IMG/VR virus record: IMGVR_UViG_3300031974_001077
Span: 1 to 37,961 of that record
DNA length: 37,961 nucleotides
Strand: one strand, 5' to 3'
DNA from: a virus
Below are positions 5,831-36,016 of this stretch, one piece after another (position 1 is the first letter of the stretch; each line of letters opens with the position of its first letter). Under the pieces are notes generated by a model. That model was not told the origin of the DNA, ran no database searches, and worked only from the letters and a program-made list of their open reading frames with translations. The translations under genes and the position numbers were made by a program.

Positions 5831-5835
5831 TAAAA

Positions 5836-8743: not shown

Positions 8744-8748
8744 GTAGC

Positions 8749-9705: not shown

Positions 9706-9715
9706 CTTTAAAATC

Positions 9716-10213: not shown

Positions 10214-10383
10214 ACTCTTCAAAAGCATTGGATACTCTTTTAGGCACAATAACCCCCACTATAGCAGTCGCTGCTTCATTTCAGGAACAATTAGAATACT
10301 GGTTAAGAGTATCTTCTTTGGTTTTGGGAATACTGGTTGCTTTAGTTTCTTTATACAGACTAATTTTTAAATACAAAAAATGA
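10210..10383 (+). CDS. Small membrane protein of the lysis cassette
   Basis: This 57-residue protein is linked by ATGA overlaps to the o-spanin before it and to the amidase after it. It has a weak hydrophobic stretch (~TITPTIAVAASF) and a clear C-terminal membrane helix (SSLVLGILVALVSLYRLIF) ending in a basic KYKK tail. The tight coupling to the endolysin makes it a good holin or holin-regulator candidate. No family was recognised from sequence alone. Confidence 0.6.
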   Translation: MNSSKALDTLLGTITPTIAVAASFQEQLEYWLRVSSLVLGILVALVSLYRLIFKYKK

Positions 10384-11218: not shown

Positions 11219-11221
11219 ACG

Positions 11222-11746
11222 ATGGACTCATTGCCTCCACAATTTAAAAAAGACAAGAAGATGATTGTCTTTCATCCATCATCGGATGACATAAAGGAAG
11301 CTTTCGAGCGCACTCAAAAGTTAGGTGTGCTACCTAATTCTTTTACTAGAGGTCAGGGAAGGATGACAGGGTTCCTTGGGGAAGTTGCTTTTGAACTACT
11401 ATACCCTAACTCTGAATATGTGGGAGACTCTTGTTTTACATATGACTATGTAATGGGTAGAAGAAAGATTGATGTTAAATCAAAAACCTGTACAGGAAAA
11501 CCCCTACCTCATTACACAGCATCTGTTAATACCAAAGACAAAAAGCTTAACGCCACTACTTACTTTTTTGTTAGAGTCCGAAAAGACCTAACCAGAGTTT
11601 GGTTGTTGGGCTGGGCCTCAAAACAAAAAATGGAAACTAAAGCTGAGTTCAAAAAGCGTGGTGAAAAAGATGACTTTGGATTTACTTATAAAGTTGATGG
11701 CTATCATTTGCCTATTCAACATCTCCGCCGACCTGATTCTCTTTAG
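11222..11746 (+). CDS. PD-(D/E)XK-type nuclease candidate
   Basis: This 174-residue protein contains GRMTGFLGEVAFELLYP (E54), then YDYVMGRRKIDVKSK with D75, D84 and K86. This matches the restriction-endonuclease-like core: a Glu on the first helix, then D...(D/E)xK. Such proteins cut DNA in recombination, repair or restriction. Basic C-terminal residues may bind DNA. It is the last plus-strand gene before the reverse-strand replication block, and its end overlaps the primase-helicase gene by 35 bp in convergent orientation. Specific activity (resolvase, nicking or other) cannot be told. Confidence 0.65.
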   Translation: MDSLPPQFKKDKKMIVFHPSSDDIKEAFERTQKLGVLPNSFTRGQGRMTGFLGEVAFELLYPNSEYVGDSCFTYDYVMGRRKIDVKSKTCTGKPLPHYTASVNTKDKKLNATTYFFVRVRKDLTRVWLLGWASKQKMETKAEFKKRGEKDDFGFTYKVDGYHLPIQHLRRPDSL

Positions 11747-13889: not shown

Positions 13890-15652
13890 TTTTCATATTT
13901 AGTTAGTATTTCTCCTTCAGCTTGTAGAGGTATATCGGGTATCCATTTTGGAGGGTCAGACATAATATTAACTATATCTTTGTATGCCTCTTCTGCTTTG
14001 TCTGCGTCTTCTTCTATGATCACTTCATCGTGAACATGGAAAATTATTTTATGCTCTGCTTTGTCGAGCCTTACCATCATGTCAGAAAAAATATCACGGG
14101 CTAGTGCTTGAGATAAGTTTTCAGCGAGTAACCCGCCCCACAATCTTACAGGCAATCTCTTACCATTCTTAGGTATAGCGGCAATGTAATCATTAAAAGA
14201 ATTTCTAGCTCCTGATACTTTCTTAATCTTACCATAGTTCAATTCTCTTTTGCTTGGCAGTACATGAACTAAATCAACTTTAGCTGCATGAGCTTTTTTA
14301 ATTTTGTCATTCAGTACACTCCAATAACCTTTTATCTTCGGCATATAGTATCTGTATCTCGCTATACCTTCTCTTGCTTGATCGACACTAAAACCAGTCA
14401 TACTTGCAAACCTATCTACTCCTACACCGTAGCCACACCCTAAAACTAAAGCTTTAACTGTATGCCTAAGTTTAGGATCTTCCTTTTTAAGTAGCCCTTT
14501 CTCTCTGCCCCACATCTTAAATCGAATAGCAAAAGCTTCATATATGTCATCAGTATCTGCAATCTCAGCTAACATATTTTTATCTTCCGCCAACCAACAT
14601 AAAGTTCTAACTTCGATTTGAGCTAAGTCTACAACGATTAGTTTTTTACCTTCTTTAGGAGCAATCAAATGTCTTAGATTTGCTCCGAACATTTCTTCAC
14701 GAGGTAAGTTCTGTAAATTTAAATTACCTCCCGATCCACTGAACCTTCCAGTATGCGCTCCAAAATACATGATGCCTCCATAAAATCTAGAGTCTGGCAT
14801 AGTTGCGTAATCGAAAGACTCAAGTTTCTTTTTAATAGCATTGATCCTTCTCCAGTCTCTAACTGAGGTAATCCATTTATGTTTTTCACTATGGTGATCA
14901 ATCCACTCTTGCGCTTTCTCATCTGTAGCCGCAAGACTTGCAGGAGGTTCTAGACCAACTAACCTACATTGATTATCAAAAGCTGCCCTACTCAATAGTG
15001 GGCTTTCTTCTATCCAAGGAATATTTTGCTCTGCTTCAAATAGCCTGACCTTTACTTTTTCCAGTTGATCTTTCAATAGGCTTTGATCAATCGGTATGCC
15101 TCCCTGAACTATTTTTCTATTGAGGTTACTTATTTCTTTTTCTGAATCAGGCCACTGGTCACTATACTTTTTCCATAGATCAAGACACAGCTCACTATCC
15201 TTAAGGGCATACTCGCTGACCTCTTCTTTGAATTCGTCAGTCATGTTATTCCACTTCTTGCCTGACATATTATCCCTTGTCGATTTGTCTACTGTCAGAC
15301 CGAAAGCTTCCGCTGTTGCATTCTTAAGTGATCTGGGTAGTCGGCAGAAAGCCGCCATATCTGCGGTGCAGTACCATGCTTTAACTTCACTGTAATCCCA
15401 CCAACCTTTATTAACGCCAAACAAATATAGGGTCTCATCAAAAGATGCGTTGTGACTAAGAACAATTGAATCTTTTATTAGAGACCAATCAAAGTCTTTA
15501 GGATGTCCTACAAATTTGTATCCGTCATCTCCAACAACTGACACCATATATGCATCAAAGTTTGGGTGACTAAAGTATCCTAACGGCCCTAATGTTTTTA
15601 TACTACATTCTTTATCGTAGTAAGTTTCAAAATCGAGTGCGTAAGTAACCAT
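13886..15652 (-). CDS. polA: DNA polymerase I-type (family A) with 3'-5' exonuclease
   Basis: This 588-residue replicative polymerase has an intact N-terminal proofreading domain: D7 and E9 in LDFET, SHNASFDE and YALKDSELCLD. Polymerase motif A is VVDLAQIEVR (D342, E347), motif B is RHTVKALVLGCGYG (~396-409) and motif C is VHDEV (H541, D542, E543). There is no 5'-3' exonuclease domain. In motif B the position equivalent to Phe762 of E. coli Pol I is Leu404, a substitution known in marine phage polymerases and associated with slower, more accurate synthesis. It is shorter than T7 gp5 (704). It overlaps the primase-helicase start and lies downstream of a 90-bp gap. Confidence 0.93.
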   Translation of the reverse strand: MVTYALDFETYYDKECSIKTLGPLGYFSHPNFDAYMVSVVGDDGYKFVGHPKDFDWSLIKDSIVLSHNASFDETLYLFGVNKGWWDYSEVKAWYCTADMAAFCRLPRSLKNATAEAFGLTVDKSTRDNMSGKKWNNMTDEFKEEVSEYALKDSELCLDLWKKYSDQWPDSEKEISNLNRKIVQGGIPIDQSLLKDQLEKVKVRLFEAEQNIPWIEESPLLSRAAFDNQCRLVGLEPPASLAATDEKAQEWIDHHSEKHKWITSVRDWRRINAIKKKLESFDYATMPDSRFYGGIMYFGAHTGRFSGSGGNLNLQNLPREEMFGANLRHLIAPKEGKKLIVVDLAQIEVRTLCWLAEDKNMLAEIADTDDIYEAFAIRFKMWGREKGLLKKEDPKLRHTVKALVLGCGYGVGVDRFASMTGFSVDQAREGIARYRYYMPKIKGYWSVLNDKIKKAHAAKVDLVHVLPSKRELNYGKIKKVSGARNSFNDYIAAIPKNGKRLPVRLWGGLLAENLSQALARDIFSDMMVRLDKAEHKIIFHVHDEVIIEEDADKAEEAYKDIVNIMSDPPKWIPDIPLQAEGEILTKYEK

Positions 15653-15661
15653 AAATAAATC

Positions 15662-15685
15662 GGGAGCTTTTATGCGATTACTCCC
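15662..15685 (-). other. Inverted repeat upstream of DNA polymerase
   Basis: In the 90-bp gap between the small coiled-coil gene and polA, GGGAG (15662-15666) and CTCCC (15681-15685) can pair around a 14-nt loop, followed on the minus strand by an A/T-rich tract and the ATG at 15652. It is too short and its loop too long to be a confident terminator. No promoter matching the leaderless layout was seen here. Confidence 0.25.
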
Positions 15686-15742
15686 AAGGCGATGAAGTTG
15701 ACCAGCCCTTAAACAAGCCGCCGCAATACCTAATTATTCAGA

Positions 15743-15925
15743 CTAGATTTCTAGCTCTGTCTGTTTGTTTATTTGTTTAAGTTGTGATTCCAGAGACTGC
15801 ATAATTATTTTAGTAGCCTCTAGATCTAATTTTGAGTTCTCAATAGCAGCAGATATTTGTTCTATCGTACTGGTGAGATTCTCAATTTCCCTTTCAAGTA
15901 TTTTCGCTTGATCCAAATCGCTCAT
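15743..15925 (-). CDS. Small coiled-coil protein
   Basis: This 60-residue protein is almost entirely one predicted coiled coil (EREIENLTSTIEQISAAIEN, then LESQLKQINKQTELEI). The ATG overlaps the stop of the upstream gene by four bases, so it is co-translated with the possible ssDNA-binding protein. No enzyme motif or membrane helix is present. It may be a partner or oligomerisation subunit of a replication protein, as inference from position only. Confidence 0.6.
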   Translation of the reverse strand: MSDLDQAKILEREIENLTSTIEQISAAIENSKLDLEATKIIMQSLESQLKQINKQTELEI

Positions 15926-16581
15926 GATACAAACCCTTCGACAAATTCAGCCACAGCTTTGCTAGGCTCTTCGTTAGTGATTGTAAGCGATGGAGCAAAC
16001 CAACTGTACTTACCACGACTTATTGATGAAGACTGGAAATTCCAAATCCTGCTATGGATTGGAGTCTTCTTATTAAACACGGAGAATGTTGCCAGTCTTT
16101 TGAAAGTCTGACGGTATGCGTCTTTAGCCACATTGATGCGGCCCATCGCAAAGTTTTCATCTCCGATTGGGAAAGGGAATGTTTCCACATCATCCCCACC
16201 TTGGAACAGCAGAGTTATTTCAGCAAACTCAAGAATCGGATAGTCACTATCCATTGCTAACTCGTGCTTTTGATCAGCGGTGTTAGCAATTCTAGGGACA
16301 TCGTCTGAGTCAAATGGGATGTCTTCTCTCCATGCTTTAGCCGCAATGAGAGGAACAACCTTGATTGGCTCTTCTGCTTGAGCAAGAACAATCCTTTTAT
16401 CCAAAGCAACTGAGCCATATGGTAATGGCTTTCCTTCGGAGTCAGTCATGTCACTTGTTTTCTGAACAACATTAACTCTAGGGATATCGATATCCGTAGA
16501 TTCTAATGTCGATGATATATCACCTTGTGGGGTGATTACTGCTGTTTGAACTTCTGCAAGTTCTGCTTTTTCTTCGCTCAT
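15922..16581 (-). CDS. Possible ssDNA-binding / replication accessory protein
   Basis: This 219-residue protein has an acidic N-terminal tail (1-30) followed by IPRVNVVQKTSDMTDSEGK, KVVPLIAAKAWRED and a basic-aromatic C-terminal part (AYRQTFKRLATFSVFN, IWNFQSSSISRGKYSWF). No named family was recognised with certainty. It lies between the Cas4-like exonuclease and the polymerase, where phages often keep a ssDNA-binding or annealing protein, and its aromatic and basic residues fit such a role. The start ATG is preceded by an unusual run of 8-bp repeats. Function is inferred from location and composition only. Confidence 0.5.
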   Translation of the reverse strand: MSEEKAELAEVQTAVITPQGDISSTLESTDIDIPRVNVVQKTSDMTDSEGKPLPYGSVALDKRIVLAQAEEPIKVVPLIAAKAWREDIPFDSDDVPRIANTADQKHELAMDSDYPILEFAEITLLFQGGDDVETFPFPIGDENFAMGRINVAKDAYRQTFKRLATFSVFNKKTPIHSRIWNFQSSSISRGKYSWFAPSLTITNEEPSKAVAEFVEGFVS

Positions 16582-16584
16582 ATA

Positions 16585-16616
16585 TCTATGTTTCTATGCT
16601 TCTATGTTTCTATGTT
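16585..16616 (-). repeat. 8-bp tandem repeat in the leader of the ssDNA-binding candidate
   Basis: Four contiguous copies of an octamer (TCTATGTT on the plus strand, AACATAGA on the minus strand), with one base changed in the second copy (TCTATGCT), sit immediately upstream of the ATG at 16581. A degenerate fifth unit follows at 16617-16624. Read on the coding strand this is an A-rich, weakly structured leader, which could help ribosome loading where no Shine-Dalgarno sequence exists. It could also be replication slippage or a protein-binding array. Confidence 0.7.
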
Positions 16617-16627
16617 TCTATTTATCC

Positions 16628-17737
16628 CTAAGACAATGTATGTCTTGGGGGAGATACTTCGACGATACCGACGCTATTGCATTGGTCAATAAACTTGTCT
16701 TGTAATTTTTTCTTCTCACCTTTTTCAGCTTTCTCGGACACAGCCTTTGCAATTTTTGATAGTGGAAGGTTTACTTCTTCAATAATTTCTTTCTCTGATA
16801 AACCAAACTCTTTGGCTATTTCAATCAGCGTTTGATTATCGGTGACCTTTTTTGTACTACCCATTTTCTTCAACCTCAGTGTTGGAAACTCAGTTCCATC
16901 TTTAGCTAAATCAATAGCTCGCTTTTTAAACTTGTCTGCCCAATTAGATACAATCTTTGAAATAACCCAAAGCTGTTCAATCATTTGCGGGTCTTCCGTA
17001 GAATCAAAATCTACATCAGGTAGACTAGGGTCAATCTTTTTAGCGACATCAACTACCAGTCCGCCTAAAGCAGGGCATACATCTTCATATCTACAAAAGC
17101 GGCAGTTAACTGTTGGCGTTAGTTCTTCAAGAGATGGGGTTCCTTTCTCCCACTTTGGCCTGACTCTTTCTGCATTTAGTATGACGTTAGACAGATCATC
17201 AATAAGATCTTCAAGCTCTTCTCTTTTAAAAGTATCTGTTAGGATTTCATTTCTTTGTGGGATAAAGAAAACAAAATCTATTCTTTCTAGTTGTGGAAAT
17301 CTTTGGAAACAACCGACCGTGTAAGCTTTGGCCTGATAGTTTTCTTTCGGGGTATCTATTTTAGATATACCTGTTTTGTAATCGGCTAGTACTCCAACCT
17401 TGTCGTAGATATGTAAAGAATCACAAGTTCCAAAAGTTGAAGTTCCTTTCAACTCAATATCTAAAACGACTTCAGCAAAGCTTTCTGTTAACTCAAGTTC
17501 TGAGTAATTACTTAAGTACTGCTCCTGATCTGCTACAATTTCCTCATATATAGAAACTTCTTCTTCAGATTGTAAGTTACTTGGATCAAGAATTTCTATA
17601 GCCTCATGGATTCGTGTCCCCATTTCAGCGGCTTCGTTTGTACCCTCTCTTCCGTGATATCCACTACACCCTGCACAATATTTTAAACTCGATGGACTAA
17701 ACTCTGCGTGACCTCTATCGGCGTGATTTACATTCAT
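16628..17737 (-). CDS. Cas4/DUF2800-like PD-(D/E)XK exonuclease with Fe-S cysteines
   Basis: A 369-residue protein from the ATG at 17737; the longer frame starts at a TTG that overlaps the promoter. It opens with FSPSSLKYCAGCSG, the form of DUF2800 proteins. It shows a RecB-type helix (GTRIHEAIE, H44), the nuclease core GTCDS (D106) and VLADYKTG (D119, K121), and a C-terminal cluster CRFCRYEDVC (C212, C215, C221). With C21 or C24 this gives the four cysteines of a Cas4/AddB-type 4Fe-4S site. It likely resects DNA ends for recombination. It lies upstream of the ssDNA-binding candidate. Confidence 0.8.
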   Translation of the reverse strand: MNVNHADRGHAEFSPSSLKYCAGCSGYHGREGTNEAAEMGTRIHEAIEILDPSNLQSEEEVSIYEEIVADQEQYLSNYSELELTESFAEVVLDIELKGTSTFGTCDSLHIYDKVGVLADYKTGISKIDTPKENYQAKAYTVGCFQRFPQLERIDFVFFIPQRNEILTDTFKREELEDLIDDLSNVILNAERVRPKWEKGTPSLEELTPTVNCRFCRYEDVCPALGGLVVDVAKKIDPSLPDVDFDSTEDPQMIEQLWVISKIVSNWADKFKKRAIDLAKDGTEFPTLRLKKMGSTKKVTDNQTLIEIAKEFGLSEKEIIEEVNLPLSKIAKAVSEKAEKGEKKKLQDKFIDQCNSVGIVEVSPPRHTLS

Positions 17738-17744
17738 GGCGCAG

Positions 17745-17773
17745 ATCTTAGCACCTCCGATATTTAAGATCAA
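17745..17773 (-). promoter_or_regulatory. Leaderless-type promoter for the exonuclease gene (minus strand)
   Basis: On the minus strand, TTGATC (17768-17773), a 17-bp spacer and TAAGAT (17745-17750) lie seven bases before the ATG at 17737. This supports 17737 as the true start. The hexamers match the consensus at 4 of 6 (-35) and 4 of 6 (-10) positions. A GGAGGT stretch in the spacer is too far from the ATG to act as a ribosome-binding site. Confidence 0.45.
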
Positions 17774-17791
17774 TTAAATTTTCAATAATTT

Positions 17792-18289
17792 TTATCTGAC
17801 CCCATTTTGATAGAGGTACATAGCGATCAAATAAGCGTCAATCATACCATCGTGTGGAGTACGACACCGTTTGTTTTTCAACCAATTTTCATTTGGGGCT
17901 AACAGTGAAGCGACTTCTAAAGCTTTACATTTAGTCTGTCCTTTCGGTATGTGGCCTAACATAAACTTCTGCCACTTATGTACCGACACTCTGTTAGTAT
18001 CAAACTCACAGCTCTCCGCCATACCCATAAGTTTACCAAAACTTAAAGCCATTGACCGTACTGCTTGAGAACTTTTAGCATGAGCTAGTGGTTCTTCTAT
18101 AGCTAACATTGGAAACACCGCAGTAAAGTCATCAAGACTTTCTAACCACAGTTTTACTTTCAATGTATCCACTTCTCGTTTCTTTGAGTTTTGAAAAGTT
18201 GGCATCGGTATCTTATCAATGATCCGTGCATCCCGACTCGATATCGCACACAAGCCACCGTCTAATCCGTTATCAATCCCTACTATCAT
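17792..18289 (-). CDS. RuvC-like Holliday junction resolvase
   Basis: This 165-residue protein has the RNase H-fold resolvase pattern: VGIDNGLDGG (D6), AIEEPLAH (E65 or E66) and the C-terminal acidic pair in PHDGMIDAYLIA (D147, D151). RuvC enzymes cut four-way junctions that arise during recombination and concatemer processing, which phages must resolve before packaging. Length matches the family (about 160-175). It overlaps the upstream gene by 17 bp and is followed by the exonuclease promoter. Assignment is strong at the fold level; the preferred substrate is not known. Confidence 0.85.
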   Translation of the reverse strand: MIVGIDNGLDGGLCAISSRDARIIDKIPMPTFQNSKKREVDTLKVKLWLESLDDFTAVFPMLAIEEPLAHAKSSQAVRSMALSFGKLMGMAESCEFDTNRVSVHKWQKFMLGHIPKGQTKCKALEVASLLAPNENWLKNKRCRTPHDGMIDAYLIAMYLYQNGVR

Positions 18290-22783: not shown

Positions 22784-25700
22784 ATGCCAGAAGATTCATT
22801 TACATCTCGCTTTTTAGCGGAACCTACTCCATCCACAGTTGAAGAGGTTCCATATTCCACTTGGTCACAAGATAATATTTTTGAAGACCCAATTGAAAGT
22901 TATTCAAAATATATGGATCACATACGAGAGCAGTATGTAGAGGCAGGAGAATACAATGTGGATATTGAAAAGAGTATCACACAAAATTTTTATGGTGAAT
23001 TAGTTCGTCAAAATTTAATTGATCCCAACAAGTTGGATGATTTTAAAACTGTTGACACAAAGATAAGAAAGTTTGAATTACCAGACTTTGAAGATCAAGT
23101 TGAGAACTTATATAAAGAAGACCTCACAAAAAAAGGCATTAGAAAAATACTCGATGAGGATGAAAGAAATTTGTTTAAAGGATATTTAGCGGATGTTCAA
23201 GCAGGAGAAGAAATTTCAGAAGAACAACAGAATATTGTAAAAGAAACTTATCGTAAAAAAAGGAACAAAATTTTAAAGCAACAGTTTGTTAGGGGCGAAA
23301 TAAATGCTGCGGTTCTTGAGGACGATGAAGGTAACTTTCAATTCTTTGGAGGACATATTCCCGAAGGGCAATCCTACATGGATGTTTTGAGAAATGCTCA
23401 AGCTCAAGGAACTGGAGTTAGAATATCTGATCTTCCTAATCTTGTTGCCGCTCAGAAAAAATTACCCGCTTTTAAAAACAAAACCCAAGCAGAGGTTATG
23501 CGGTTAACGGCTTTAGCGGGAGAGGTTCAGGCCCATCTTAAAAAAGATGAAGGATTAAAAAATAAATTAGCGGGTCTTTCCAGAGCTAGAGTAGAGGCAG
23601 AAGATGGTTTTTGGGATAATACAAAAGATGTAGCTGAGTCTGCTTTAGGTTTTATGTTCGACATCGGCACTGCTGTTTTCGGCAGCGATGAAGCTCAAGC
23701 AAATAGGAATGTCCAGTCAGCGATTAAAAGATATTCAAACAGCGTAGAAATTACAAAAGAAAGTCTCAAATCTGAACTAGCTACCTTAACAGGAGCTTCT
23801 GATAAAGATGTTGAACAAGTCATTGATCAACTCTCAATAGACCAAGCTGACTTTAAGTTTTACGAGGATGATTTAAAATTAAATCTAAGAGAAGGTATTT
23901 ATAAGCAACCTAAGATACATACCTCTCTATTACACCAACCTAAGTTACTTGATAGAGCTATAGCGGAAGCAGATTTAGACGACGAAGTCGCTGAAAGTTT
24001 ACGAGCATCCAGAGAAATTTTTGCCGCTGAAGATTATAGTAGAGTTAATAAACTCCTTCAGGAGGATGGAGATACTGCTGATGACTGGAATGAGTTCTAC
24101 CTTAATAACAAAAAAGAAGGAATAGAAGATCATAAAATATTAGAAAAATTTGCAGAAGAATATGATTTTAATGGGTTCGTTGATAAACTAGAGGGTATTG
24201 GTTATTCTCTGTATTCAGGGACTATAGGAACTGCGGCAACAATCATTGGGTCAATAACAGGGATAGATACTTTAAGAGAGTATGGTGTTGAAGTCATTAC
24301 TAATGAGCAGAAGAGAAGACAAGTAGGTGGAGTCTTCGGAGTTGAATATGGCTCGATGTATGATCTTGCAACGACTGCCGTGCCAATGGTTACAGACATG
24401 GCTGCCACTGTATTCCTATCAAAGTTTACAGCAGGTGTCGGGGGAGCAGTTTATGCAGGAGCTAAAGCAAGTTCAGTATCTGCTGTTAGGTCAATAGCTA
24501 ATAACTTTGTTAAGGGAAACTTGAAGCTTGTAGGTGGGGAAACATACAAAGACGTAGCGCAAAAACTATTTAAAGAGGGAGCGATTAAAAATTTAGATGA
24601 TGCTTATGGGATAGTTAAGAACTTTAATTCTGTAATGGCACAACGTATAGGAGCTGCTCCTGCTGTTTTTATTCCAGCAGCTAGTAGATCTGGTGCAAAT
24701 ACATATGCCGCCGTTAACACCTTGATGACGGAAAAACTTACGCAAGACCATAAGAATGCCGACGGTTCGTGGCAAGATGGTTGGAGTGAAGAGAGAGTTA
24801 AAAAGGAAGCCCATGAAAAAGGAATATCGGGGATGATATACGGAGGAGCGTTTACAGGATTACTTACAGCGGGTTTTGGTTTAGTGGGTAAAGGTGGATT
24901 TGAAACAGCTTTCCTCAGAAACGCTTCTTACAGGCAATTAAAAAATGTAGGGGAAAGACTTTTAAATAGAGAAATAGCTGACGTAGTTTTTGTTGAAAAC
25001 TTAAAGAAGAGTTTTAAAACTGCATTAGCAAAACAACAGTTAACAGGTCTATCTAAAATTACTCAGGGTGCTTTATCAGAGGGGGTAGAAGAAAGTATAG
25101 ATGAATTTGCTAACACACTTATTCAGGATATAATCACAAGTGAAGCCACTCCAATGGTGGATGTACTTAATCAAACCTTCCACGCCTTTTTCTTAGGTGG
25201 TGTTTTAGGTGGGGGTGGAGTCGCTGTAAATAGAGCCGCAAAAACAATTGCCCCAGACAGATTCTTAGACAAAAAAGCAGCCGCAGATTTTGAAAATGAA
25301 ATCTTGGAACAGTACCAAAGAGATGTTCAAGGTAATAAAGAATTAATAGAAGCAGGTGCGCCACTTACAGCTCAAGCGGCTGCTGAATACTTAAGCCGTT
25401 ATGCCCGTACTCAACCATCAGCCGAACAAGAGGCAGAAAAAATAATAGAGCCTTTTGTTGAAGATGAGGTCAACGAAGAATCTGAGATACTAAACAATGA
25501 TTTAAATAATATAGACAGAGACGAAGTAGAAAATGCTTTTAATGAAGAGCTTGAAAAATCTGAAAAAGGTAAAGATCCAGTTGACCCTGAAGTAGCTATC
25601 TCTGAAGACGCTCAACAAATCATAAAAGAAAATGGTCTTGATGTAGACGAGGCACTAGGAAAAATTTTAAAGCCTCACTACGCACCGTCTCCTAAAGAAG

Positions 25701-28700
25701 TTCAAGAAAGGTATACCGAAAAAGAAAAAGACATAAAGCAAAGACTGGAGACTTGGGAGGCTGTAAACAGAATAAAAGATCCAGAAAAACAACAAGAAAC
25801 TAAAATCGCTCTTAAGCAAGTAGGTTATAATATCTTAAATCCATCTCAAGCAAAAGCCGCTGTAAAAAAATTAAGGACTCAAACTGAAAGAGATTTAAAA
25901 GCTATTGAGCAAGCAGAAAAAGATGGCCTCACTGAAACCGATATGCACCTTGTTGAAACACTTGCTTCAGAAGGTGTTTCAAAATCTTTAGATCAAAGCA
26001 CTCTTAAAGAATTAGATGTTAAACCAAGCAAGAGTGATCCTGCTTTTATTAAAGTTCTTGAGAAAAAAGTTAAGCAGAGGATCAAGTCTAAGTATCCTAC
26101 TCGTCCTGTTAGATTACCAGAAGGTGGGTATGAAATACCAAGAGGTGAAGGCAAAAGCACTCTGAAAGTGAAGAGTAACGGTGTAGGTGTTTTTAACAAC
26201 GATCCTGAATCAATGATTGCTTTACTGCAATTAGGAGTTCCTGTTGAAGTAGACAGCGTAACGGAACAAACCAACCCATCTTTTAAGTGGGAGCAGAAGG
26301 GAAATAAATTTATACTCCGTGATGTCGTAGTCAGAGAGTCGGGTGGAATGATCTCCGCTACTACATCTAATAATGATGTCGCCGTTTTAGAGGAAGACTA
26401 CACTGATTTAATCAATGATGCGAAAAAGCTAAACGAATTAAATCAGATAGATAACCCAAATCTCGACGTTCAAATTAAGAGTCCTTTTGATAGAAGAAGG
26501 AAAGCTACGGTGAGGGATCTGATCGAAGTATCTAAAGATCCTTTAGAACTTAAAAAACTTTTAGCTAAGTCAAACACAAAAGTCGATGACTTAGATAAGC
26601 CCTTTTTTGATTCCGCTGTAACTTATCTTAGTGTTCAATTGCAACTAAGATTTAGAAATTATGCCGAAGCTTTAGGTAAAGGGCTTGCTGTTGATTTAAA
26701 CTTTACTGCCAATAGCGTTGCTTCGGATGTTGTAGAATATTTATACAAGCAACAACAAGCTAGAAAAGATTATCAAGTTAGATCTACTGTAGAGTCTATC
26801 GATACAGATCGAACCAACAAAGTAGATCTAAACGAAGACGTAGACAGAACAGAAATGTCTGAGGACACCTATGTTCCTGTAAGCTTTTCATCAGACCCAT
26901 CGTTAAGAGATCCTTCTGTTATTAGAGAATACTTAACACAGCAGCAAGATGCTGCCGCCGCTGCTTTGGAATCTGACCCTGAAATGACTCAAGCTCTTAG
27001 AGCCGCCATGACAGAGGCGGGTCATGGATATGCAAATCAACTTTCTGGAGAAGCTTTGTTTGCGGCGCACGTTTCAGAATTAGCTAGAACAGGAAACTTC
27101 AATAAACAGAAGAGTATTTATCAGTTTCACAGCAGACTAAAAGCAGGTGAATTTGATAAAGGAAAAGTTTTAAGTGATTCTTTATTCTTCTTAAATCTTT
27201 CTCACAAATTTAATAGAGCCGCAGACCAAAGTCCGACTACTAAAAAAGAAGCCGCTGCTAGAGTAAAAGAAAAATTAGAATCTATAACAGGTAAAAAGAT
27301 TCTGGAGCCAGAGGCTATTAATTTTTATACGCAAGTTAAGAAACAAATAAATAAGTTTCTTCAAAGGGGAGTCGCTGATAAGAGGTCTCGGAAAGCTATA
27401 GAGGCCGCTAATGACTCTCAAGTTGAAGAGCTAGGTCTTAGAGATGGATCTCCTGATCACGTTATCAAAGCTTTAGAAAAAATTGCTAAAGGTAAAAACA
27501 AAGTACAGGCTATCATTGCTAGAGTTCTGTTGCACAACAGAGCGTTGCTTAAAACAATAGACTTCACTCTTGAAAAATCCTCCGCTACTTATGCAGGAAA
27601 ATATTTTATTAACAATGAAGGTAAAGGCCATGTCGTAATTAACTTAAGTCGAACTGGCGGAAGAGGTATTGCTGACACATTACTCCATGAGTATATCCAT
27701 GCTTTCTCTTCAAGAATAACTCAGCTTGATCCAAGCCAAAGAACTACAGCAGAGAACAACGCTATCGCAAGACTCGAAGGTCTTTTGAAGATTGTTAGAA
27801 AACAAGCGGCTGCGGATAAAGCTCCCGCTAGTATTCAAGCAGGTCTTGCTAATGTAGATGAGTTTATCTCTTACTTCTTAACATCACCTAAGTTCCAAGG
27901 TTACATAAAGAGTATGACTCTGAAAGAGGGTCGTAGTTTCTTTGATAGAATCATCGACGCTATTGCTCGTTTATTCAGACAACCTACGAATGAAAGAGAA
28001 TACAATGCGGCATTGAGAGATGTTCTTGATATTACTAAACGTGGTATGCTTGTCAGGGAACCTGACTCAAGTGCAGGATTCAGGGATCAGGTTGCAGAGG
28101 GTATTGAGCAATCTCAAAAAGAAAGGGATGGGATCTCTAAGTTGCTTTCAATGGAAGCAGATATAAGAGATCTTGAAATGCTTGATGAGAAAGCAGCAGA
28201 GCTAGAAATATTTGTGGGGAACTATGTTCCTTCAGAGGTCGCTGTATTCTCAAACAATGATATACCTACCATCGCCCGATGGAATCCACAGACTCAAGCT
28301 ATTGAGTTTAACGGAAGAAGAGCTGCCGCCTTTTTAAATGAGGCGTTAACTAATAACGGAGGGTATCCGATAAACGAAGAACAGGTCATTGGTATTTTAA
28401 TCAATGAAGAACTTGCCCACGCCGCTTCATTCGCTTCGTTGAGTCAAGATAGTATTAACACAATCATCGATTCAATGGATGACGCTCAAGCAAAGATTGT
28501 CATTGAAGAGTATTATCCAGAAGACGAACAAGCGGATGCTTTGAAAAGACTTGAGAGTGACGACCCTCAAGTAGTTAAAAACCAAAAGTATATCCTTGCG
28601 GAAGAAATGATGCGTATGTTCTTCCAAAAGAAAACAAGAGGGACAACTTCTGAAGAAGTAGTTTCCTTCTTAATAGAATCACCTACCAATTTAGAAATAT

Positions 28701-31700
28701 TTAAACAGTATCTTAAGAATACTTTTTCTAGACTTAGTTACCATAAAGAAGCAAAACACATTTCTCCTGAAATGAGAAATGGCATCAAGCGTGTTTTGAA
28801 TGAGGTGCGCCGAATGGAAGCAGGGTACAGAACCAGAATGAACGGTATGTACTTTGACACTGCTAACCCTAACGCTACCGTCAATCAATTAATCGATCAG
28901 TTATCTAGAAATAAATCATTAGACTTTTTAGAAGAAGATGACATTGCTCCTGATTTAGAAACTAGAATAGGATCTACCGCTCTTATAACCGCTCCTCTTA
29001 GAGTAGACGAATTGAGAACTTTGTCGAAACAAGAAATGGTTAAGCGAGTAGACTCTGCTAAGTATATCCATTTGCAACAGGCTTTCGATGATATAGCGGA
29101 GGCTTATGGCTTAACAGTGGATACAAGAAGTCCATTAATAGGAGGCTACTTAGAACCAGTTGATAAAACAGACCCTGATTATGAAGGAAAAACGGAGGAA
29201 GAATTAAGGCAGTTAGCAACTTTATCTACTGAGGTTCCTGAAAGAGTTTTTGTTGAAGGAGCAACTGAAGAAGAGTTAAGAGAAATAGCATTACTAATTA
29301 AAGTTTTAGCTCCAGAAGTACAGCACTCTACTTTGATAGTGAAGTACCAAGATGAAGAAGCAGGAGCGCAAGAAATAGAAGTGCGCATAAAAACAAAGGG
29401 GGCTGAAAAAGCTAGAATGATGGCAGAGGATTGGTTGAAAGATAAGAATGCAGGAGGTTTTTCTTATGACCCCACAACCAGAGAGATAAACACTCTATTG
29501 CTTGAGCCTGAAGAAGAGGGCGATCCTACGGTTGACGAACAGCTAAATACATGGAATACTTTTGTAGATGAGCAAAAACAAAAAGGGAACATCTTCAAAA
29601 ACGCCCAATCAGAATCCACCTATGTCTCGACCCAATTTGTCGGAGGAAAGCTTGAGGACGTTCAAGCAGAGGTGCAAAGAATTAGGGATAAAGCACGTCA
29701 GCAAGACAACGCAGCCCTTCTTGAGGTTTCAGAGAGAACCCTCAAAAGAATAGATCAAGAGAAAGACGCTGAAAAAATACAGTCGAAAGCGAAAAAGATT
29801 TTAGAGAAAAGAACGCTTTCCCCCTTATCTTCAAAGACAATAGCTAAAGAAACGAAGGGTAAATCCTTTGAGACCATAAGAGACTTTGGTAAATTTTTAG
29901 ATGACCGTTTTGAATCCATTGAAGGCGTTCGTCAACTAAGTGAACAAGCTGATGAAGGGATTGATGATCGTGCCGCTAAAGCCGCCATTCCTTTAGTAGA
30001 TGATATCCTAACAGGATTGTCAGAGTCAGGTAGTGGTAAAGGGTGGTATGATGGAAGAGTTCAAGCGACTCTACATGAGTTAACTAAAGTATACCCTGAA
30101 CTCGCCGACAGCCCAAATGAGTTAGCGATCTTTGTTGGTATCCTTGCGACTACAAGCCAAGGACAAAAAGTGGTAGCTAACTTTAGATTTGCTTCACAAG
30201 TATACGAAGACTATAAAGCAACAGGCAAAATCCAAAGTGATTACACACAGATGGGTGAAGCTCAAGGGGCTATAAATGGAAACCTCAAATTCATGCAAGA
30301 CCTTATAGACAGGTTTCAAAAAGAAACTGGTTTAGGTAAGGATGAGTTTACGAAGTTCATGGATAGCGAAATTTTAGGAGGGGCACTTCGAGATATGTTT
30401 GGTAAGGCTCCAACTGGAGTAACTCTAAAAGAGACTGTCGTAGGAGCAAGGATGCTTGGCCCTAAGATAGGATCTTTCTTTAATAATCTAAGGCGTAGAT
30501 TTGATACCATAACTATGGACTTGTGGTACACAAGAACCATGCACCGTTACATCGGTAACTCTGTTTTGGAAAACGATGCCGAAGCAGTAGTCAATGCCAG
30601 AGAAAAATTTATTGACGCTCTTCGTGTTGCCGAAAGGAAATACGAATTAGATCCTGAAGAACTTGAGACCAAAGATTTTGAAGAAGTTTTCTCGGCAGCG
30701 AAACAAGTTTTTAGAGTTTGGGCTTCAGGTAAACACCCCGATGCAGGAGGCAAGACTTACAAAAGATATGCGGACGGTTATGAAATAGAAAAAGCAGCTA
30801 GAACAATTACGACTACTTCAGAAATGAAGAAGGCTCCAAAGAATAAATCACACTCTTTATTCTTTGAGAGGATTGTTAGAGAAGCTCAAAGCCAACTAAA
30901 AGATTTAGGTATAGATTTAAACGCCGCTGATATACAAGCAATCTTATGGTTCAGAGAAAAGAATCTATTTAAAGGATTAGGATTAGCAGATAGTGCCGCC
31001 GCACCTGCTGACTATCTTGATGCCGCTATGGTATTGAGAAGAGAGAAAGCACAAGAGGTCGCACCCGCACTTGAAACAAAAGTTGGTGGGGGAGTTACGG
31101 TGGATGACATGATATCTTCTGTTTTAAAAACTATTAGAAATATTGAATCTATACAAGAGAGATCACCTGTCCTTTACGATTTAATAGATCCTTCGGAGGC
31201 CAAAGAAGCGGCTCGATTGATAAGGCAGCAACTAGGTTTTGCTGATCCTAACGATGACGTAGATAAGGCGGCAAACTTTATTGAGGGCATAGATTTTTAT
31301 ATTGATTCACAAGAAAACCCTATAACCTCAGAAGGCTGGGAAGCCTTACTTGAAGCTTCAGGAATTCCATCCGAAATTTTACAAATGCCAGAAGAAATCA
31401 TTCCTGATTATCTCGCTGAAGGAATTTCAATAGACGAAGAACTAGATTCAGAACCTGTACCTCCTGCATTGGAGACCCGCTTTGGAGCAGGTAAGTTTCC
31501 TTCAGATCACAAAGGATTGAAAAATATAATTGAAGGGAAGAAAGTAGGTAATGCTACTGGTATTGGTAAAGGGATGGAAGGTAGTCGTGTTAACTTATCT
31601 CATACTAACATTACTCTAGGCAGATTAAGTAGAGATACTGAGGGCAAGAATTACGACGACAATTACCCTGTCGGAGTTATGCCTTACGCTTTAGAAATTG

Positions 31701-34700
31701 GTAATAGAAAGTTTAATGCTTTCAATGTCAGGTTAAAGGATTCAGATAATGTTAATCTCTCAAAATCTGTATACGAAAATTTCTTGAAGGGGGGTAACAA
31801 ATACAAGTTGTCTGAAGACATGACAATTGAACAACTACTCACCGCAGTAAACGTAAATAGAAATACACCTACTGCAAGAATAGGCGAGACAGATCTAAAA
31901 CTTATTAACCCCGATATAGTGGGCAAAGATATAATACCAAAAGGAACTATAATATATGCACAAGGAGCTAAAGGTGTAGTCGGAGGGCCAGCAGGTACAC
32001 TCGTTTCTTATAACAAGGATATAAAAGATGTTGCTGCTGAAGGAATTTATATTAATGACAGCACTCAAAAGTTTACTGATCAAATATTAAAAGGAGAGAA
32101 AACTGTTGAAACAAGAAACAAACCAACTCTTGATAGGTTCATTGGACAAAGAGTTGGCATAATTAGATCAGGTAGAGGTAAGTCAGTGGTCGTTGGATAT
32201 GCGACCATTGGAGATAGAATTGATTACCCAACAGAAAAATCTTTTAGAGCGGATGAGAAAAGGCACAAGGTTAAAAAGGGAAGTAAGTTTGATACTAAAG
32301 GAGTTAAGTATGGGTATGAATTACTTGATGTAACAGAAGAACCAAACCCTTACGGAGTTGTCGAAAGTAAATCAAGACAACACGCACTCATTGCTCATTC
32401 AATTGCTTACAATCCAGCTCAATCAAACTATATGTATCCAGTTTATGGAACTAAAGATGGGCCTGTATTTGAAGTGAACAAAGAATTTGTTGGTGCTGAT
32501 GAAGTAATAATGATCAGTGATTTAGGTAAACAAACCACGGATCAAGGAATCAACTTCATGCTCGTGGCTAGGGGTGCAAGGTTCAAGAATCTTACAGATC
32601 AACAAGTAAAAAGAAAAAGAAGTTCTAACCAAATTACAAAATTTATTAAAGGTAGAGCTACTCCTCTGGAAGCTCCACCTAAAGCCCCCGCACTTGAAAC
32701 ACAGTTCGGTGCTTCTTCGTACATACCTAAATCTATTGGTGAAGCAGACTTAGACTTCTCCGATATGTTTGAGTCGCTCGACATACCGATACTCGAATAC
32801 GGAACCTTTGAGCAACCATCAAGCACATTCAAGAAAGCTTTGGTAGGAAGCACGGACAGACAAGTCAGAAGATTTATTGAAGAGCGGGATGCCTTTGTTA
32901 GGACAACAAAAGGTATCGTTAAACAATTCAAAGATAAATTTGATAAAGACATTGAGAGAATAGAAAACAAAAAGAACGTAACAATTCCAAAGTCTATAAT
33001 TTCAAGAGCTACTGGATCTACGGTCGGGTCTCAGTTGTCACAAGATCAATTAGATGATGTCTCCGATAAGTTTGAAAAAGCGATCAAGGCCGCTCGGAAA
33101 ATAAATGATCAGGCTACTCGTGAAGCGGCTTTCATTTCGGCAGAAGAACAGCGTAGAAAAAACATAACCAACTACCGCCAGCAAAACAGAGATCGTTTGC
33201 TTGAGGACAGAGACAAAGCTCTTAAGGAATTGTCTGAACTTACCGATAACTCGCCTGATGTCGTTCAGCTTATTATAAATGCTCGTGCATTCATGGATGA
33301 GCTGTCTAAGAAGGGCAACGATTTGTTCAGCGATTACCTATCTGACTTCGACGTTCAAGCAACCTTCGACGGTAACTTAGGTATCTATATAACAAGAAGA
33401 TACCGTATGTTTGAAGACGATGCTTTTGGAGACAGAGTTTTAACAGGCACAGAGTATGAGTCTGTTAGAAATGCAGCTCTAAATTTCTTCAGCAAAGTTT
33501 ACTTCAACCAACAAGTTAAGTACTACATGACTGAAGAAGGTTATAGTAAAAAGGTTGCAAGAGAACTTGCTTCACAAGATCTCGATGATGCAAACGCAAT
33601 GACCGTTTCTCCGATGCAAACAATGATGGAGGATTTTGTTAACGGATATAAGAGTGGGGATATAACTGGGGGAGTGAAAACTTTTGTAGGCTCAAACCAA
33701 GAAGAGCAAATTGCTATTAGCAGTACTCAAAATATTTCAAAGCCATTAAAAGCTTATCTCAATCAAATAAAAAACAAACATGATGTCCCTGTAGAGTTAA
33801 GAAATCTGTTAGGTGAATATGGAGAAGAAGCGGGTATAGATAACATACTCATATCGATTGTATCTACTTCAAGTATGATGGCGAACCAAGCGATGCTTAA
33901 CAAGATGGCTCACTACGGGATGCAAGGAGACAATCCGTGGATGGTCGGGGCTACCGATATCTTAAATGAAAAAGAGGCCGCCGCCGCTGAAGGCAGACGG
34001 TCAAAGTATGAAGGATGGGTTCCTTTAAGAAAGTCTCAAGGGTCTATGGATTGGAATCCTGTTTCTGATATGTACGTCGAACAAGAAGTTTACGACGGCC
34101 TGAAAGAAATTTTTGAGAAACCAAGTCAAAAAGAAGCGGGTGCTTTTGGTAATCAAGTTTTCAGAGCAATGCAACAAGCGACTGGTCTTTCACTCGCCGC
34201 TAAGACATTAGGTTCTGTAGGTTTCTATGTCAGAAACATGGTGAGTAACGGACTGTACTTCGGCCCAATGCAGGGATACTACGGAGGTATAGGACTCGGT
34301 ATGAAAGAAGCAGGTGCAGTTCTCGGCGGGATATCCCACATCGATAGATTGAATGGGCCAGTAGGAGATTATGTTAAAGGGCTGAAGGAAGACTCCATGT
34401 TGGTTCGAGCCTACAGAGGTTCAAGAGCAACGATGGATGCTGAGTTAGAGTTTCTCGCTTCACAAAATGTTTGGGGGGATGAAGTTCAGGCTGAAGTAAT
34501 AAGAGAATTTGTTGAAGGAAAAGTTACTAAGAAAGGTATTGAATTAAAAATACAGGAGGTAGCTGAAGAGATTAAAAGACTAGCCCCTAAAGGAATCGAA
34601 AAGGCTCCAGAAAAAGTAGCAAGTAAAGTTAAAGGTTTAGCTGAGTTTGCCGCTAGATTAGCTAGTGCTTCTGATGCCTACTATAAGATAGGTTACTATC

Positions 34701-36016
34701 ACTTTGAGTTAGCTCATCTTGTTGAAGCCGCTCAGAAAGATGCGCCTGATGGTAAGTACAGAAAGCTTCTTAAGGAAGACGGAACACCATCTACGGAGAT
34801 GAAAAAGATGGCGGCATTAAAAGTTAAAAGAACTTCTCAAGCTTACAGCCAAGCTCCACCAATAATAAGGAAAGCCACATCTAGTGCGCTTGGTTTACAC
34901 GTTGGTGCTTATGTTAGATTCGCTGGTGAGACTGTTAGAATTCCTTTTAACACATGGCAACTCTCAAAAGAAGAATTAGCCGATGCTAACCCAGTGATCC
35001 AAGCAAGAGGAAAATCAAGGCGTAAAGGAATGGCACTCGTATTCGGTGGGTTTACCGTAGTAATCCCACAAATGATGAGGATGCTCATAGCTAATATGGA
35101 TCTCGATGAAGAGGAAGCTCTCAGGAACACATTACCTGAATACATGAGAGATCATACTTTCTTATATACGACCTTCGGTAAAGGCATACAGAGTTGGGAT
35201 TTAACGTACTTGAATCCGTTCGCTTCAATCACTGATGGCTTTATCAGAGGAGCTGAACATTTACTTAAAGGTAACTTTGGTGAAGCTGTTGAAAGTATTT
35301 TACTCAAAACATTTAAGCCTTTTGTAGAGCCTCAAATATTAGCAGAAGCACTAATACAAGTGGGACTAAACAAGAACCAATATGATAAACCAATCTACTA
35401 TAAAGATGACCCTGCAATAGAACAGTGGGCGAAGAGATTCCTGTATGTTTTGGATAACGCATATGGTTTAAGAACTATGAGCAAAATAAATGAGACTCAA
35501 ATTGCTCTGCGGGGTGAAGGTGAAGGTTTCCTTAATAGTCCGTTAGGGATTATAGCCGCTGAATTTACCCCTACAAGACCTCACTCAGTAGACTTGCAAG
35601 CTAACATGAGGAACTTCCTTAACGCTAAAGCGAAAGAGTACAGAGATATCACCACTAAGTTCAATCGCCTGTATCAAGATAAGGCCATGACGAGAGGTCA
35701 AGTAAACTCACTATACAGCGACATACAAAACTCCAGACGAAGATTGAATGAGACTGTTTTTGAAACCATGAAAAACTTTGAAAGCATAGGTAGAAAACAT
35801 GGAGGCATAACTCGATCTGAAATCGAGAGACAAGCAAAGATAACAGGCATGAGTAAAGAGAGATTCAGACTTGGCAGAATGGGTTACATGAAAACCTTGA
35901 GACCAAGCCCTGCTCAAAGAAAGAAATTAGACTCATCCGCTTTAGGTCGATCAAGATCTAATCAACTCAAACAACTCCAGAGAGAATTTGGAGACACCAT
36001 ACCATTAGATAATTAA
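22784..36016 (+). CDS. Giant polyvalent virion protein (4410 residues)
   Basis: One uninterrupted frame. Residues ~1-470 are helical and charged. Residues ~470-820 hold Gly/Ala-rich hydrophobic segments (~470-500, ~539-560, ~681-705, ~801-820) suited to membrane insertion. A zincin-like site follows: HEYIH at 1635-1639, with E1693 in NVDEFISYF as third-ligand candidate. A second copy reads NEELAH (1874-1879) with AEE at 1939-1941. Residues ~2370-2740 form a helical domain (GWYDGR, ATTSQGQK, GSFFNNLRRRFD). Residues ~3087-3185 look like an ASCH fold (ILKGEKTVETR, GQRVGIIRSGRG). The C-terminus (~3660-4100) resembles the LPD38 domain of polyvalent proteins (LRNLLGEYG, VGFYVRNMVSNG). A PxLETxxG motif occurs at ~2055, 2760, 2893 and 3301. 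Most likely packaged and ejected with the DNA. Confidence 0.75.
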   Translation: MPEDSFTSRFLAEPTPSTVEEVPYSTWSQDNIFEDPIESYSKYMDHIREQYVEAGEYNVDIEKSITQNFYGELVRQNLIDPNKLDDFKTVDTKIRKFELPDFEDQVENLYKEDLTKKGIRKILDEDERNLFKGYLADVQAGEEISEEQQNIVKETYRKKRNKILKQQFVRGEINAAVLEDDEGNFQFFGGHIPEGQSYMDVLRNAQAQGTGVRISDLPNLVAAQKKLPAFKNKTQAEVMRLTALAGEVQAHLKKDEGLKNKLAGLSRARVEAEDGFWDNTKDVAESALGFMFDIGTAVFGSDEAQANRNVQSAIKRYSNSVEITKESLKSELATLTGASDKDVEQVIDQLSIDQADFKFYEDDLKLNLREGIYKQPKIHTSLLHQPKLLDRAIAEADLDDEVAESLRASREIFAAEDYSRVNKLLQEDGDTADDWNEFYLNNKKEGIEDHKILEKFAEEYDFNGFVDKLEGIGYSLYSGTIGTAATIIGSITGIDTLREYGVEVITNEQKRRQVGGVFGVEYGSMYDLATTAVPMVTDMAATVFLSKFTAGVGGAVYAGAKASSVSAVRSIANNFVKGNLKLVGGETYKDVAQKLFKEGAIKNLDDAYGIVKNFNSVMAQRIGAAPAVFIPAASRSGANTYAAVNTLMTEKLTQDHKNADGSWQDGWSEERVKKEAHEKGISGMIYGGAFTGLLTAGFGLVGKGGFETAFLRNASYRQLKNVGERLLNREIADVVFVENLKKSFKTALAKQQLTGLSKITQGALSEGVEESIDEFANTLIQDIITSEATPMVDVLNQTFHAFFLGGVLGGGGVAVNRAAKTIAPDRFLDKKAAADFENEILEQYQRDVQGNKELIEAGAPLTAQAAAEYLSRYARTQPSAEQEAEKIIEPFVEDEVNEESEILNNDLNNIDRDEVENAFNEELEKSEKGKDPVDPEVAISEDAQQIIKENGLDVDEALGKILKPHYAPSPKEVQERYTEKEKDIKQRLETWEAVNRIKDPEKQQETKIALKQVGYNILNPSQAKAAVKKLRTQTERDLKAIEQAEKDGLTETDMHLVETLASEGVSKSLDQSTLKELDVKPSKSDPAFIKVLEKKVKQRIKSKYPTRPVRLPEGGYEIPRGEGKSTLKVKSNGVGVFNNDPESMIALLQLGVPVEVDSVTEQTNPSFKWEQKGNKFILRDVVVRESGGMISATTSNNDVAVLEEDYTDLINDAKKLNELNQIDNPNLDVQIKSPFDRRRKATVRDLIEVSKDPLELKKLLAKSNTKVDDLDKPFFDSAVTYLSVQLQLRFRNYAEALGKGLAVDLNFTANSVASDVVEYLYKQQQARKDYQVRSTVESIDTDRTNKVDLNEDVDRTEMSEDTYVPVSFSSDPSLRDPSVIREYLTQQQDAAAAALESDPEMTQALRAAMTEAGHGYANQLSGEALFAAHVSELARTGNFNKQKSIYQFHSRLKAGEFDKGKVLSDSLFFLNLSHKFNRAADQSPTTKKEAAARVKEKLESITGKKILEPEAINFYTQVKKQINKFLQRGVADKRSRKAIEAANDSQVEELGLRDGSPDHVIKALEKIAKGKNKVQAIIARVLLHNRALLKTIDFTLEKSSATYAGKYFINNEGKGHVVINLSRTGGRGIADTLLHEYIHAFSSRITQLDPSQRTTAENNAIARLEGLLKIVRKQAAADKAPASIQAGLANVDEFISYFLTSPKFQGYIKSMTLKEGRSFFDRIIDAIARLFRQPTNEREYNAALRDVLDITKRGMLVREPDSSAGFRDQVAEGIEQSQKERDGISKLLSMEADIRDLEMLDEKAAELEIFVGNYVPSEVAVFSNNDIPTIARWNPQTQAIEFNGRRAAAFLNEALTNNGGYPINEEQVIGILINEELAHAASFASLSQDSINTIIDSMDDAQAKIVIEEYYPEDEQADALKRLESDDPQVVKNQKYILAEEMMRMFFQKKTRGTTSEEVVSFLIESPTNLEIFKQYLKNTFSRLSYHKEAKHISPEMRNGIKRVLNEVRRMEAGYRTRMNGMYFDTANPNATVNQLIDQLSRNKSLDFLEEDDIAPDLETRIGSTALITAPLRVDELRTLSKQEMVKRVDSAKYIHLQQAFDDIAEAYGLTVDTRSPLIGGYLEPVDKTDPDYEGKTEEELRQLATLSTEVPERVFVEGATEEELREIALLIKVLAPEVQHSTLIVKYQDEEAGAQEIEVRIKTKGAEKARMMAEDWLKDKNAGGFSYDPTTREINTLLLEPEEEGDPTVDEQLNTWNTFVDEQKQKGNIFKNAQSESTYVSTQFVGGKLEDVQAEVQRIRDKARQQDNAALLEVSERTLKRIDQEKDAEKIQSKAKKILEKRTLSPLSSKTIAKETKGKSFETIRDFGKFLDDRFESIEGVRQLSEQADEGIDDRAAKAAIPLVDDILTGLSESGSGKGWYDGRVQATLHELTKVYPELADSPNELAIFVGILATTSQGQKVVANFRFASQVYEDYKATGKIQSDYTQMGEAQGAINGNLKFMQDLIDRFQKETGLGKDEFTKFMDSEILGGALRDMFGKAPTGVTLKETVVGARMLGPKIGSFFNNLRRRFDTITMDLWYTRTMHRYIGNSVLENDAEAVVNAREKFIDALRVAERKYELDPEELETKDFEEVFSAAKQVFRVWASGKHPDAGGKTYKRYADGYEIEKAARTITTTSEMKKAPKNKSHSLFFERIVREAQSQLKDLGIDLNAADIQAILWFREKNLFKGLGLADSAAAPADYLDAAMVLRREKAQEVAPALETKVGGGVTVDDMISSVLKTIRNIESIQERSPVLYDLIDPSEAKEAARLIRQQLGFADPNDDVDKAANFIEGIDFYIDSQENPITSEGWEALLEASGIPSEILQMPEEIIPDYLAEGISIDEELDSEPVPPALETRFGAGKFPSDHKGLKNIIEGKKVGNATGIGKGMEGSRVNLSHTNITLGRLSRDTEGKNYDDNYPVGVMPYALEIGNRKFNAFNVRLKDSDNVNLSKSVYENFLKGGNKYKLSEDMTIEQLLTAVNVNRNTPTARIGETDLKLINPDIVGKDIIPKGTIIYAQGAKGVVGGPAGTLVSYNKDIKDVAAEGIYINDSTQKFTDQILKGEKTVETRNKPTLDRFIGQRVGIIRSGRGKSVVVGYATIGDRIDYPTEKSFRADEKRHKVKKGSKFDTKGVKYGYELLDVTEEPNPYGVVESKSRQHALIAHSIAYNPAQSNYMYPVYGTKDGPVFEVNKEFVGADEVIMISDLGKQTTDQGINFMLVARGARFKNLTDQQVKRKRSSNQITKFIKGRATPLEAPPKAPALETQFGASSYIPKSIGEADLDFSDMFESLDIPILEYGTFEQPSSTFKKALVGSTDRQVRRFIEERDAFVRTTKGIVKQFKDKFDKDIERIENKKNVTIPKSIISRATGSTVGSQLSQDQLDDVSDKFEKAIKAARKINDQATREAAFISAEEQRRKNITNYRQQNRDRLLEDRDKALKELSELTDNSPDVVQLIINARAFMDELSKKGNDLFSDYLSDFDVQATFDGNLGIYITRRYRMFEDDAFGDRVLTGTEYESVRNAALNFFSKVYFNQQVKYYMTEEGYSKKVARELASQDLDDANAMTVSPMQTMMEDFVNGYKSGDITGGVKTFVGSNQEEQIAISSTQNISKPLKAYLNQIKNKHDVPVELRNLLGEYGEEAGIDNILISIVSTSSMMANQAMLNKMAHYGMQGDNPWMVGATDILNEKEAAAAEGRRSKYEGWVPLRKSQGSMDWNPVSDMYVEQEVYDGLKEIFEKPSQKEAGAFGNQVFRAMQQATGLSLAAKTLGSVGFYVRNMVSNGLYFGPMQGYYGGIGLGMKEAGAVLGGISHIDRLNGPVGDYVKGLKEDSMLVRAYRGSRATMDAELEFLASQNVWGDEVQAEVIREFVEGKVTKKGIELKIQEVAEEIKRLAPKGIEKAPEKVASKVKGLAEFAARLASASDAYYKIGYYHFELAHLVEAAQKDAPDGKYRKLLKEDGTPSTEMKKMAALKVKRTSQAYSQAPPIIRKATSSALGLHVGAYVRFAGETVRIPFNTWQLSKEELADANPVIQARGKSRRKGMALVFGGFTVVIPQMMRMLIANMDLDEEEALRNTLPEYMRDHTFLYTTFGKGIQSWDLTYLNPFASITDGFIRGAEHLLKGNFGEAVESILLKTFKPFVEPQILAEALIQVGLNKNQYDKPIYYKDDPAIEQWAKRFLYVLDNAYGLRTMSKINETQIALRGEGEGFLNSPLGIIAAEFTPTRPHSVDLQANMRNFLNAKAKEYRDITTKFNRLYQDKAMTRGQVNSLYSDIQNSRRRLNETVFETMKNFESIGRKHGGITRSEIERQAKITGMSKERFRLGRMGYMKTLRPSPAQRKKLDSSALGRSRSNQLKQLQREFGDTIPLDN

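Follow-up and report, generated by a model that had tools for sequence, protein, structure and literature searches.

Lineage-specific tags delimit the cargo modules of a giant phage protein and are candidate self-processing sites

The window – the whole stretch of DNA analysed here, 37,961 bases long and identical to the complete IMG/VR record IMGVR_UViG_3300031974_001077 – has as its largest open reading frame (ORF) a giant gene on the plus strand (22784–36016), encoding a polyvalent-type internal virion protein of 4410 residues. An original prediction, made from the letters alone, had pointed to four copies of a PxLETxxG motif (hereafter tags) at apparent segment boundaries in this protein, and had taken them for either a repeated linker or a processing site. 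All four stand at the residues noted then, within window positions 28946–32710, and the spacing, given as about 700, 130 and 400 residues, measures 705, 133 and 408. The tags and the segments that they delimit are as follows.

22784–36016, plus strand: giant gene, polyvalent-type internal virion protein (ORF and homology)
28946–28972, plus strand: tag 1, APDLETRIG, residues 2055–2063 (motif match; predicted local distance difference test, pLDDT, below 50)
28973–31060, plus strand: cargo module A, residues 2064–2759 (module clustering; weak DUF7178 similarity in the C-terminal half)
31061–31087, plus strand: tag 2, APALETKVG, residues 2760–2768 (motif match)
31088–31459, plus strand: cargo module B, residues 2769–2892 (no relatives found)
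31460–31486, plus strand: tag 3, PPALETRFG, residues 2893–2901 (motif match)
31487–32683, plus strand: cargo module C, residues 2902–3300 (relatives in L119, L141 and L144 begin at their own tag)
32039–32392, plus strand: ASCH-like domain inside module C, residues 3086–3203 (weak Pfam ASCH match; 65% identical to a cassette in L126 and L170)
32684–32710, plus strand: tag 4, APALETQFG, residues 3301–3309 (motif match; pLDDT about 29)
32711–36016, plus strand: conserved, largely helical C-terminal region, residues 3310–4410 (homologue coverage and model)

The pattern P.LET..G occurs exactly four times in the giant protein and in none of the other ORFs of the window, while 2000 shuffles of the whole protein's residues gave a mean of 0.003 occurrences and a maximum of one; PALET is also the sole 5-mer found three times in the protein. 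One structure model was made per region, which covered copies 1 and 4, and both lie in disordered tails, not inside compact domains. The acidic or Pro-rich linker said to precede the tags is present before copies 1, 3 and 4 (LEEDDI, DEELDSEPV and PLEAPPK) but not before copy 2, where LRREKAQEV is neither. That three of the four copies come after such stretches is what a reading of the tags as chance similarity or plain linkers has in its favour; the shuffled expectation, together with the distribution and class purity of the tags among relatives (below), already refutes it, and we give it practically no weight.

Relatives were recruited through the terminase adjoining the giant gene, which led to 80 IMG/VR loci and to the giant gene from 24 of these records; an earlier search, with the C-terminal part as query and few exact patterns, had returned none. 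With further homologues from a zincin-based scan, the working set comprises 39 proteins (that of the window and 38 from IMG/VR, designated by L numbers). A scan of bacterial genomes (A3) gave no relatives. Shared among the homologues are an N-terminal part (residues 1–2055, most of 1 to about 2050) and a C-terminal part (3301–4410): among the first 24, coverage is 21 of 24 before tag 1, 0–3 across residues 2055–3301 and 22–23 of 24 after tag 4. These steps coincide with copies 1 and 4, and cargo modules shared between phages start and stop at tags, which bears out the proposal that the tags are true segment boundaries. The first and last tags thus bound a hypervariable cargo zone, subdivided by the inner ones, whose size ranges among homologues from none (about 10–36 residues) to about 2,000 residues.

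Across phages, the Pfam matches of the cargo include DUF7178, GNAT, Methyltransf_23, 2H phosphodiesterase, weak ASCH, DUF5591 and DUF3990, and there are weak ADP-ribosyltransferase-like domains as well. The ASCH-like domain, at 65% identity across two distantly related phages, forms a separate tag-flanked cassette in L126 (residues 3080–3203) and is internal to module C in the window. Cargo modules of L126, L128 and L130 hold further HExxH zincin-like stretches (AHEIVHA, LTHESGHA and LLHEAAHA), which are possibly effectors or additional processing enzymes.

Only the window and L141, the relative closest to it, have the letters PxLET. Most homologues therefore lack the motif that was originally described, yet a counterpart of it occupies the corresponding position, in a wording that depends on the lineage. 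The LET class, LET(R/K/Q)xG, comprises the window and L141, with four copies each; the LQSR class, LQSRxG, is found in L117, L118, L119, L144, L147 and L149 (2–3 copies); the LES class, LES(R/Q/T)FG, in L121, L122, L124, L127 and L151 (1–3 copies); and a fourth group, the SG class, xSG(I/L/V), has up to six copies. A common form is (L/I)-x-(S/T)-x-hydrophobic-G. No protein mixes tags: the LET, LQSR and LES patterns give 33 matches in 32,045 residues of cargo zones and none in 124,742 residues elsewhere, with all 33 in proteins of their own class and none in those of a foreign class (the short SG pattern has 0–3 background matches per protein). The same tags emerge when the best repeated 9-mer of each cargo is sought without supervision, with a result above all shuffles in the window, L117, L119, L122, L126 and L128. 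Tag copy number rises with cargo length (Spearman 0.93, n=24), and cargo-less relatives have at most one tag, with L166 and L167 keeping a single copy. In a tree built from the zincin region, each tag class is monophyletic. A terminase tree demands two changes for LES, and for no other class, which gives weak support for linkage of the tag to the giant gene.

Modules move between these lineages. One of them is 78.8% identical end to end between L117 (residues 2852–3185) and L141 (3083–3418), but is flanked by LQSR in the former and by LETR in the latter, so the tags follow the recipient. Modules about 60–65% identical are common to the LQSR and SG lineages, and others cross between LES, LQSR and LET. 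The tag might instead be a recombination seam, its DNA providing short homology for module swapping and its peptide being without function. The codons used for identical tag residues speak on both sides: they are mostly shared in L122 (17 same, 4 different) and L126 (57 same, 12 different), which suggests recent DNA-level copying there and suits a seam, whereas differing codons prevail in the window, with 19 different against 10 same, and in L117, with 11 against 5, so that the peptide is under selection in these two. The near-identical modules of L117 and L141 also reside in phages with different tag DNA, and a seam does not predict the co-loss described next, so that we regard this explanation as very improbable. 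Gene conversion as the sole origin of the copies was likewise weighed against the codon data and rejected.

Just upstream of tag 1, an AlphaFold2 model shows two domains, each of three strands with flanking helices. The first has the HExxH...E signature, and both signature and fold are as described for the zincins of polyvalent proteins (PMC5512222); the second carries a variant motif. Their features are listed here with reference to the window's clade, in which eight members are tag-less, in three lineages (L120; L123 and L156; L125, L154, L157, L158 and L159).

27386–28018, plus strand: zincin domain 1, residues 1535–1745, with HExxH at 1635–1639 and third ligand E1693 (AlphaFold2 model; match to C1 of the phage N4 virion RNA polymerase, vRNAP, Z 8.4)
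28079–28813, plus strand: zincin-like domain 2, residues 1766–2010, with variant motif NEELAH at 1874–1879 (conservation and model)
28406–28420, plus strand: presumed active-site helix of domain 2, E1875-E1876-x-x-H1879 (unchanged in all 26 tag-bearing proteins; destroyed in all eight tag-less clade members)
28511–28513, plus strand: presumed active-site residue Y1910 of domain 2 (lost in each of the three tag-less lineages)
28604–28606, plus strand: E1941, presumed to be the third metal ligand in domain 2 (present in every one of the 26 tag-bearing proteins; lost in each tag-less lineage)

In the zincin region, 44 columns are near-invariant, with conservation of 92% or more across the 26 proteins that bear tags. 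The ones that a majority of the eight tag-less members have lost are E1875, E1876, H1879, Y1910, E1941 and I1727; HExxH and E1693 of domain 1 are kept in them. Columns lost in all three lineages number two of 44 here and none of 577 in the N-terminal, middle, C-terminal and terminase alignments. L120 and L156 have neither tag nor active site and still possess cargo, so the loss of the active site tracks the tag and not the cargo. Since its active-site residues disappear exactly where the tag does, domain 2 is the best candidate for the reader of the tag.

The motifs of the two domains vary in other ways too. L132 and L134 have lost HExxH in domain 1 (RSFAH and EEYVH) and kept the domain 2 set, the reverse of the tag-less lineages. 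Fragments among L007–L086 contributed just two further domain-2 sequences. Domain 2 of L060 reads HEELGH, the HEXXXH form mentioned for some polyvalent metallopeptidases, and the NEELAH of the window may have descended from such a sequence.

The original prediction had left the choice between linker and processing site undecided. A tag that each lineage has to itself, that keeps to one class within a protein, and that is re-addressed on module transfer and co-lost with domain 2 residues favours the processing site over a passive linker, and we think it probable that the tags are phage-specific self-processing sites, at which cleavage would free injected effectors from a single chain. Two other explanations have to be weighed at this point. 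The tag might be a docking motif, bound by domain 2 (as a pseudoenzyme or scaffold) or by some other part of the phage, which would arrange the cargo inside the head or draw it through the tail uncut. Docking accounts equally well for tag privacy, re-addressing and co-loss, and NEExxH falls outside the canonical catalytic motifs; however, the lost residues are of the kind that would form a metal site (E-E, H, a distant E and the Y) rather than a surface groove, the rest of the domain is conserved, and docking alone leaves unexplained why tags separate modules. To us it seems unlikely. The other possibility is that the tags are indeed processing sites and the cutter lies elsewhere: it could be zincin domain 1, a prohead protease that escaped notice, or a protease of the host. 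Domain 1 does have a canonical, nearly always intact HExxH...E, and prohead proteases process head proteins such as DarA of phage P1 (PMC12810830). But domain 1 stays intact in tag-less relatives, the ten window proteins scanned include no protease gene, and a host protease would not account for a private tag in each lineage, which makes a separate cutter more doubtful still than docking.

Several points weigh against self-processing. Cleavage at the tags is something we infer and do not observe. The independent co-losses number three, too few for a pairwise sign test to reach significance (p 0.25), and five distant homologues, L132–L136, retain the domain 2 set in full or for the greater part although no repeat was recognised in them. 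The first junction is frequently untagged in the LES lineage (L121, L124, L127 and L151). Domain 2 itself has no canonical HExxH, most homologues having NEExxH instead; its zincin fold comes from a moderate model (mean pLDDT 74, predicted template modelling score 0.45), its structural matches are weak (ArdC, Z 5.7; MATCAP, Z 4.3), and hhalign aligns its profile with that of domain 1 in register, though short of significance (E 0.065). The vRNAP of phage N4 contains a related zincin, yet its packaging takes place without cleavage (PMC5512222). Domain 2 matched no Pfam family, and sequence searches of Pfam and the Protein Data Bank (PDB) gave chance-like matches only; with Foldseek alone, nothing matched the zincin pair significantly (best E 0.24), the match of domain 1 having come from a second aligner.

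Matches in cultured phages and in a few named metagenomic records were all distant. Those of the C-terminal part are virion proteins of Cellulophaga phages and of one Pseudoalteromonas phage, and include gp123 of Cellulophaga phage phi18:3, a homologue detected in virions by mass spectrometry; those of module A are Limnohabitans phage DC33 and two podoviruses from spring water (Manatee Spring); and those of the zincin part are Xanthomonas internal virion proteins and N4-like vRNAPs, the similarity to Klebsiella ones falling in domain 1. The window tag is absent from Pseudoalteromonas phage Y3, DC33, phi18:3 and the two Manatee Spring podoviruses, and a repeat search found no convincing repeated tag of their own; we therefore do not claim that all polyvalent proteins use tags. 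In the giant proteins of L002, L003 and L005, LFNQNN, VFAQSG and MFQTQE recur near domain borders and may represent the tag of another lineage, although not above shuffles. L001 (Pseudoalteromonas phage vB_Pun_Y3) has a direct duplication of about 300 residues at about 13900–15900 (METNEKIEEQIYSG... to KIPTN), formed by the end of its first giant ORF (4573–14838) and the start of the second (14864–17947); it is either real or an artefact of assembly by which a single giant gene is split.

How self-processing might proceed can be outlined. The giant protein would be a phage-injected polyprotein, packaged and injected as its relatives suggest, and the tag a proteolytic site within a flexible linker, recognised by a co-evolving protease. 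Domain 2 (NEExxH...Y...E) would be that protease, as a variant metallopeptidase, or at least the tag reader. Cleavage by zincins often occurs ahead of a bulky hydrophobic residue, and our guess from this general preference is that the cut may fall just N-terminal to the one in the tag (LETR|FG, LQSR|YG, LASG|IT). Cutting would release the DUF7178, ASCH, GNAT, methyltransferase, phosphodiesterase and ADP-ribosyltransferase-like modules in the host cell or en route. The wider picture, towards which we lean with a little less assurance than towards the processing sites themselves, is that of an uncultured phage family with an injected, self-cleaving polyprotein and plug-in effector cassettes, in which a variant zincin reads a private code and moving cassettes are re-addressed. 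If so, the system would serve as a delivery platform whose counter-defence enzymes pass between phages as cassettes, and the tags would make it simple to locate new injected effectors of uncultured phages and to mark out their limits.

Self-processed viral polyproteins, known mainly from RNA viruses and retroviruses, yield several products per chain through one type of junction site and an internal protease. The giant protein resembles them in repeating one site type at module junctions, and differs in belonging to a tailed DNA phage, in having swappable cargo and in that its cleavage is inferred. In coliphage N4 gp50, the vRNAP (Schitoviridae; PMC12633501), a zincin is likewise followed by a large helical C-terminal domain; between these two, the window adds a second zincin-like domain and tag-punctuated cargo (up to about 2,000 residues in the family). 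Searches of Pfam and PHROGs with the whole protein found no RNA polymerase family, although divergent forms could be missed. DarA of phage P1 (PMC12810830) is of the head-packaged type, serves in anti-restriction and is proteolytically processed, but is cut near its N-terminus by a separate prohead protease, Pro, whereas repeated tags and the protein's own domain are proposed here.

A further parallel is offered by the polyvalent proteins of phages and conjugative elements, which, as characterised in the available text of PMC5512222, are likewise very large and multidomain, combine zincin-like and effector domains and are predicted to be injected; the giant protein shares their trait of several effector-like domains per polypeptide, exchanged between phages. 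Neither an EExxH-type peptidase nor such tag sites were found in the open-access literature, and that same text describes no repeated junction tag, lineage-specific site code or tag–peptidase co-loss. It does contain the prediction by Iyer et al. (2017; PMC5512222) that zincins process polyvalent proteins, which raised the question of whether and where such chains are processed; to this the present analysis contributes exact predicted sites and a named candidate active site, which comes with natural loss-of-function controls.
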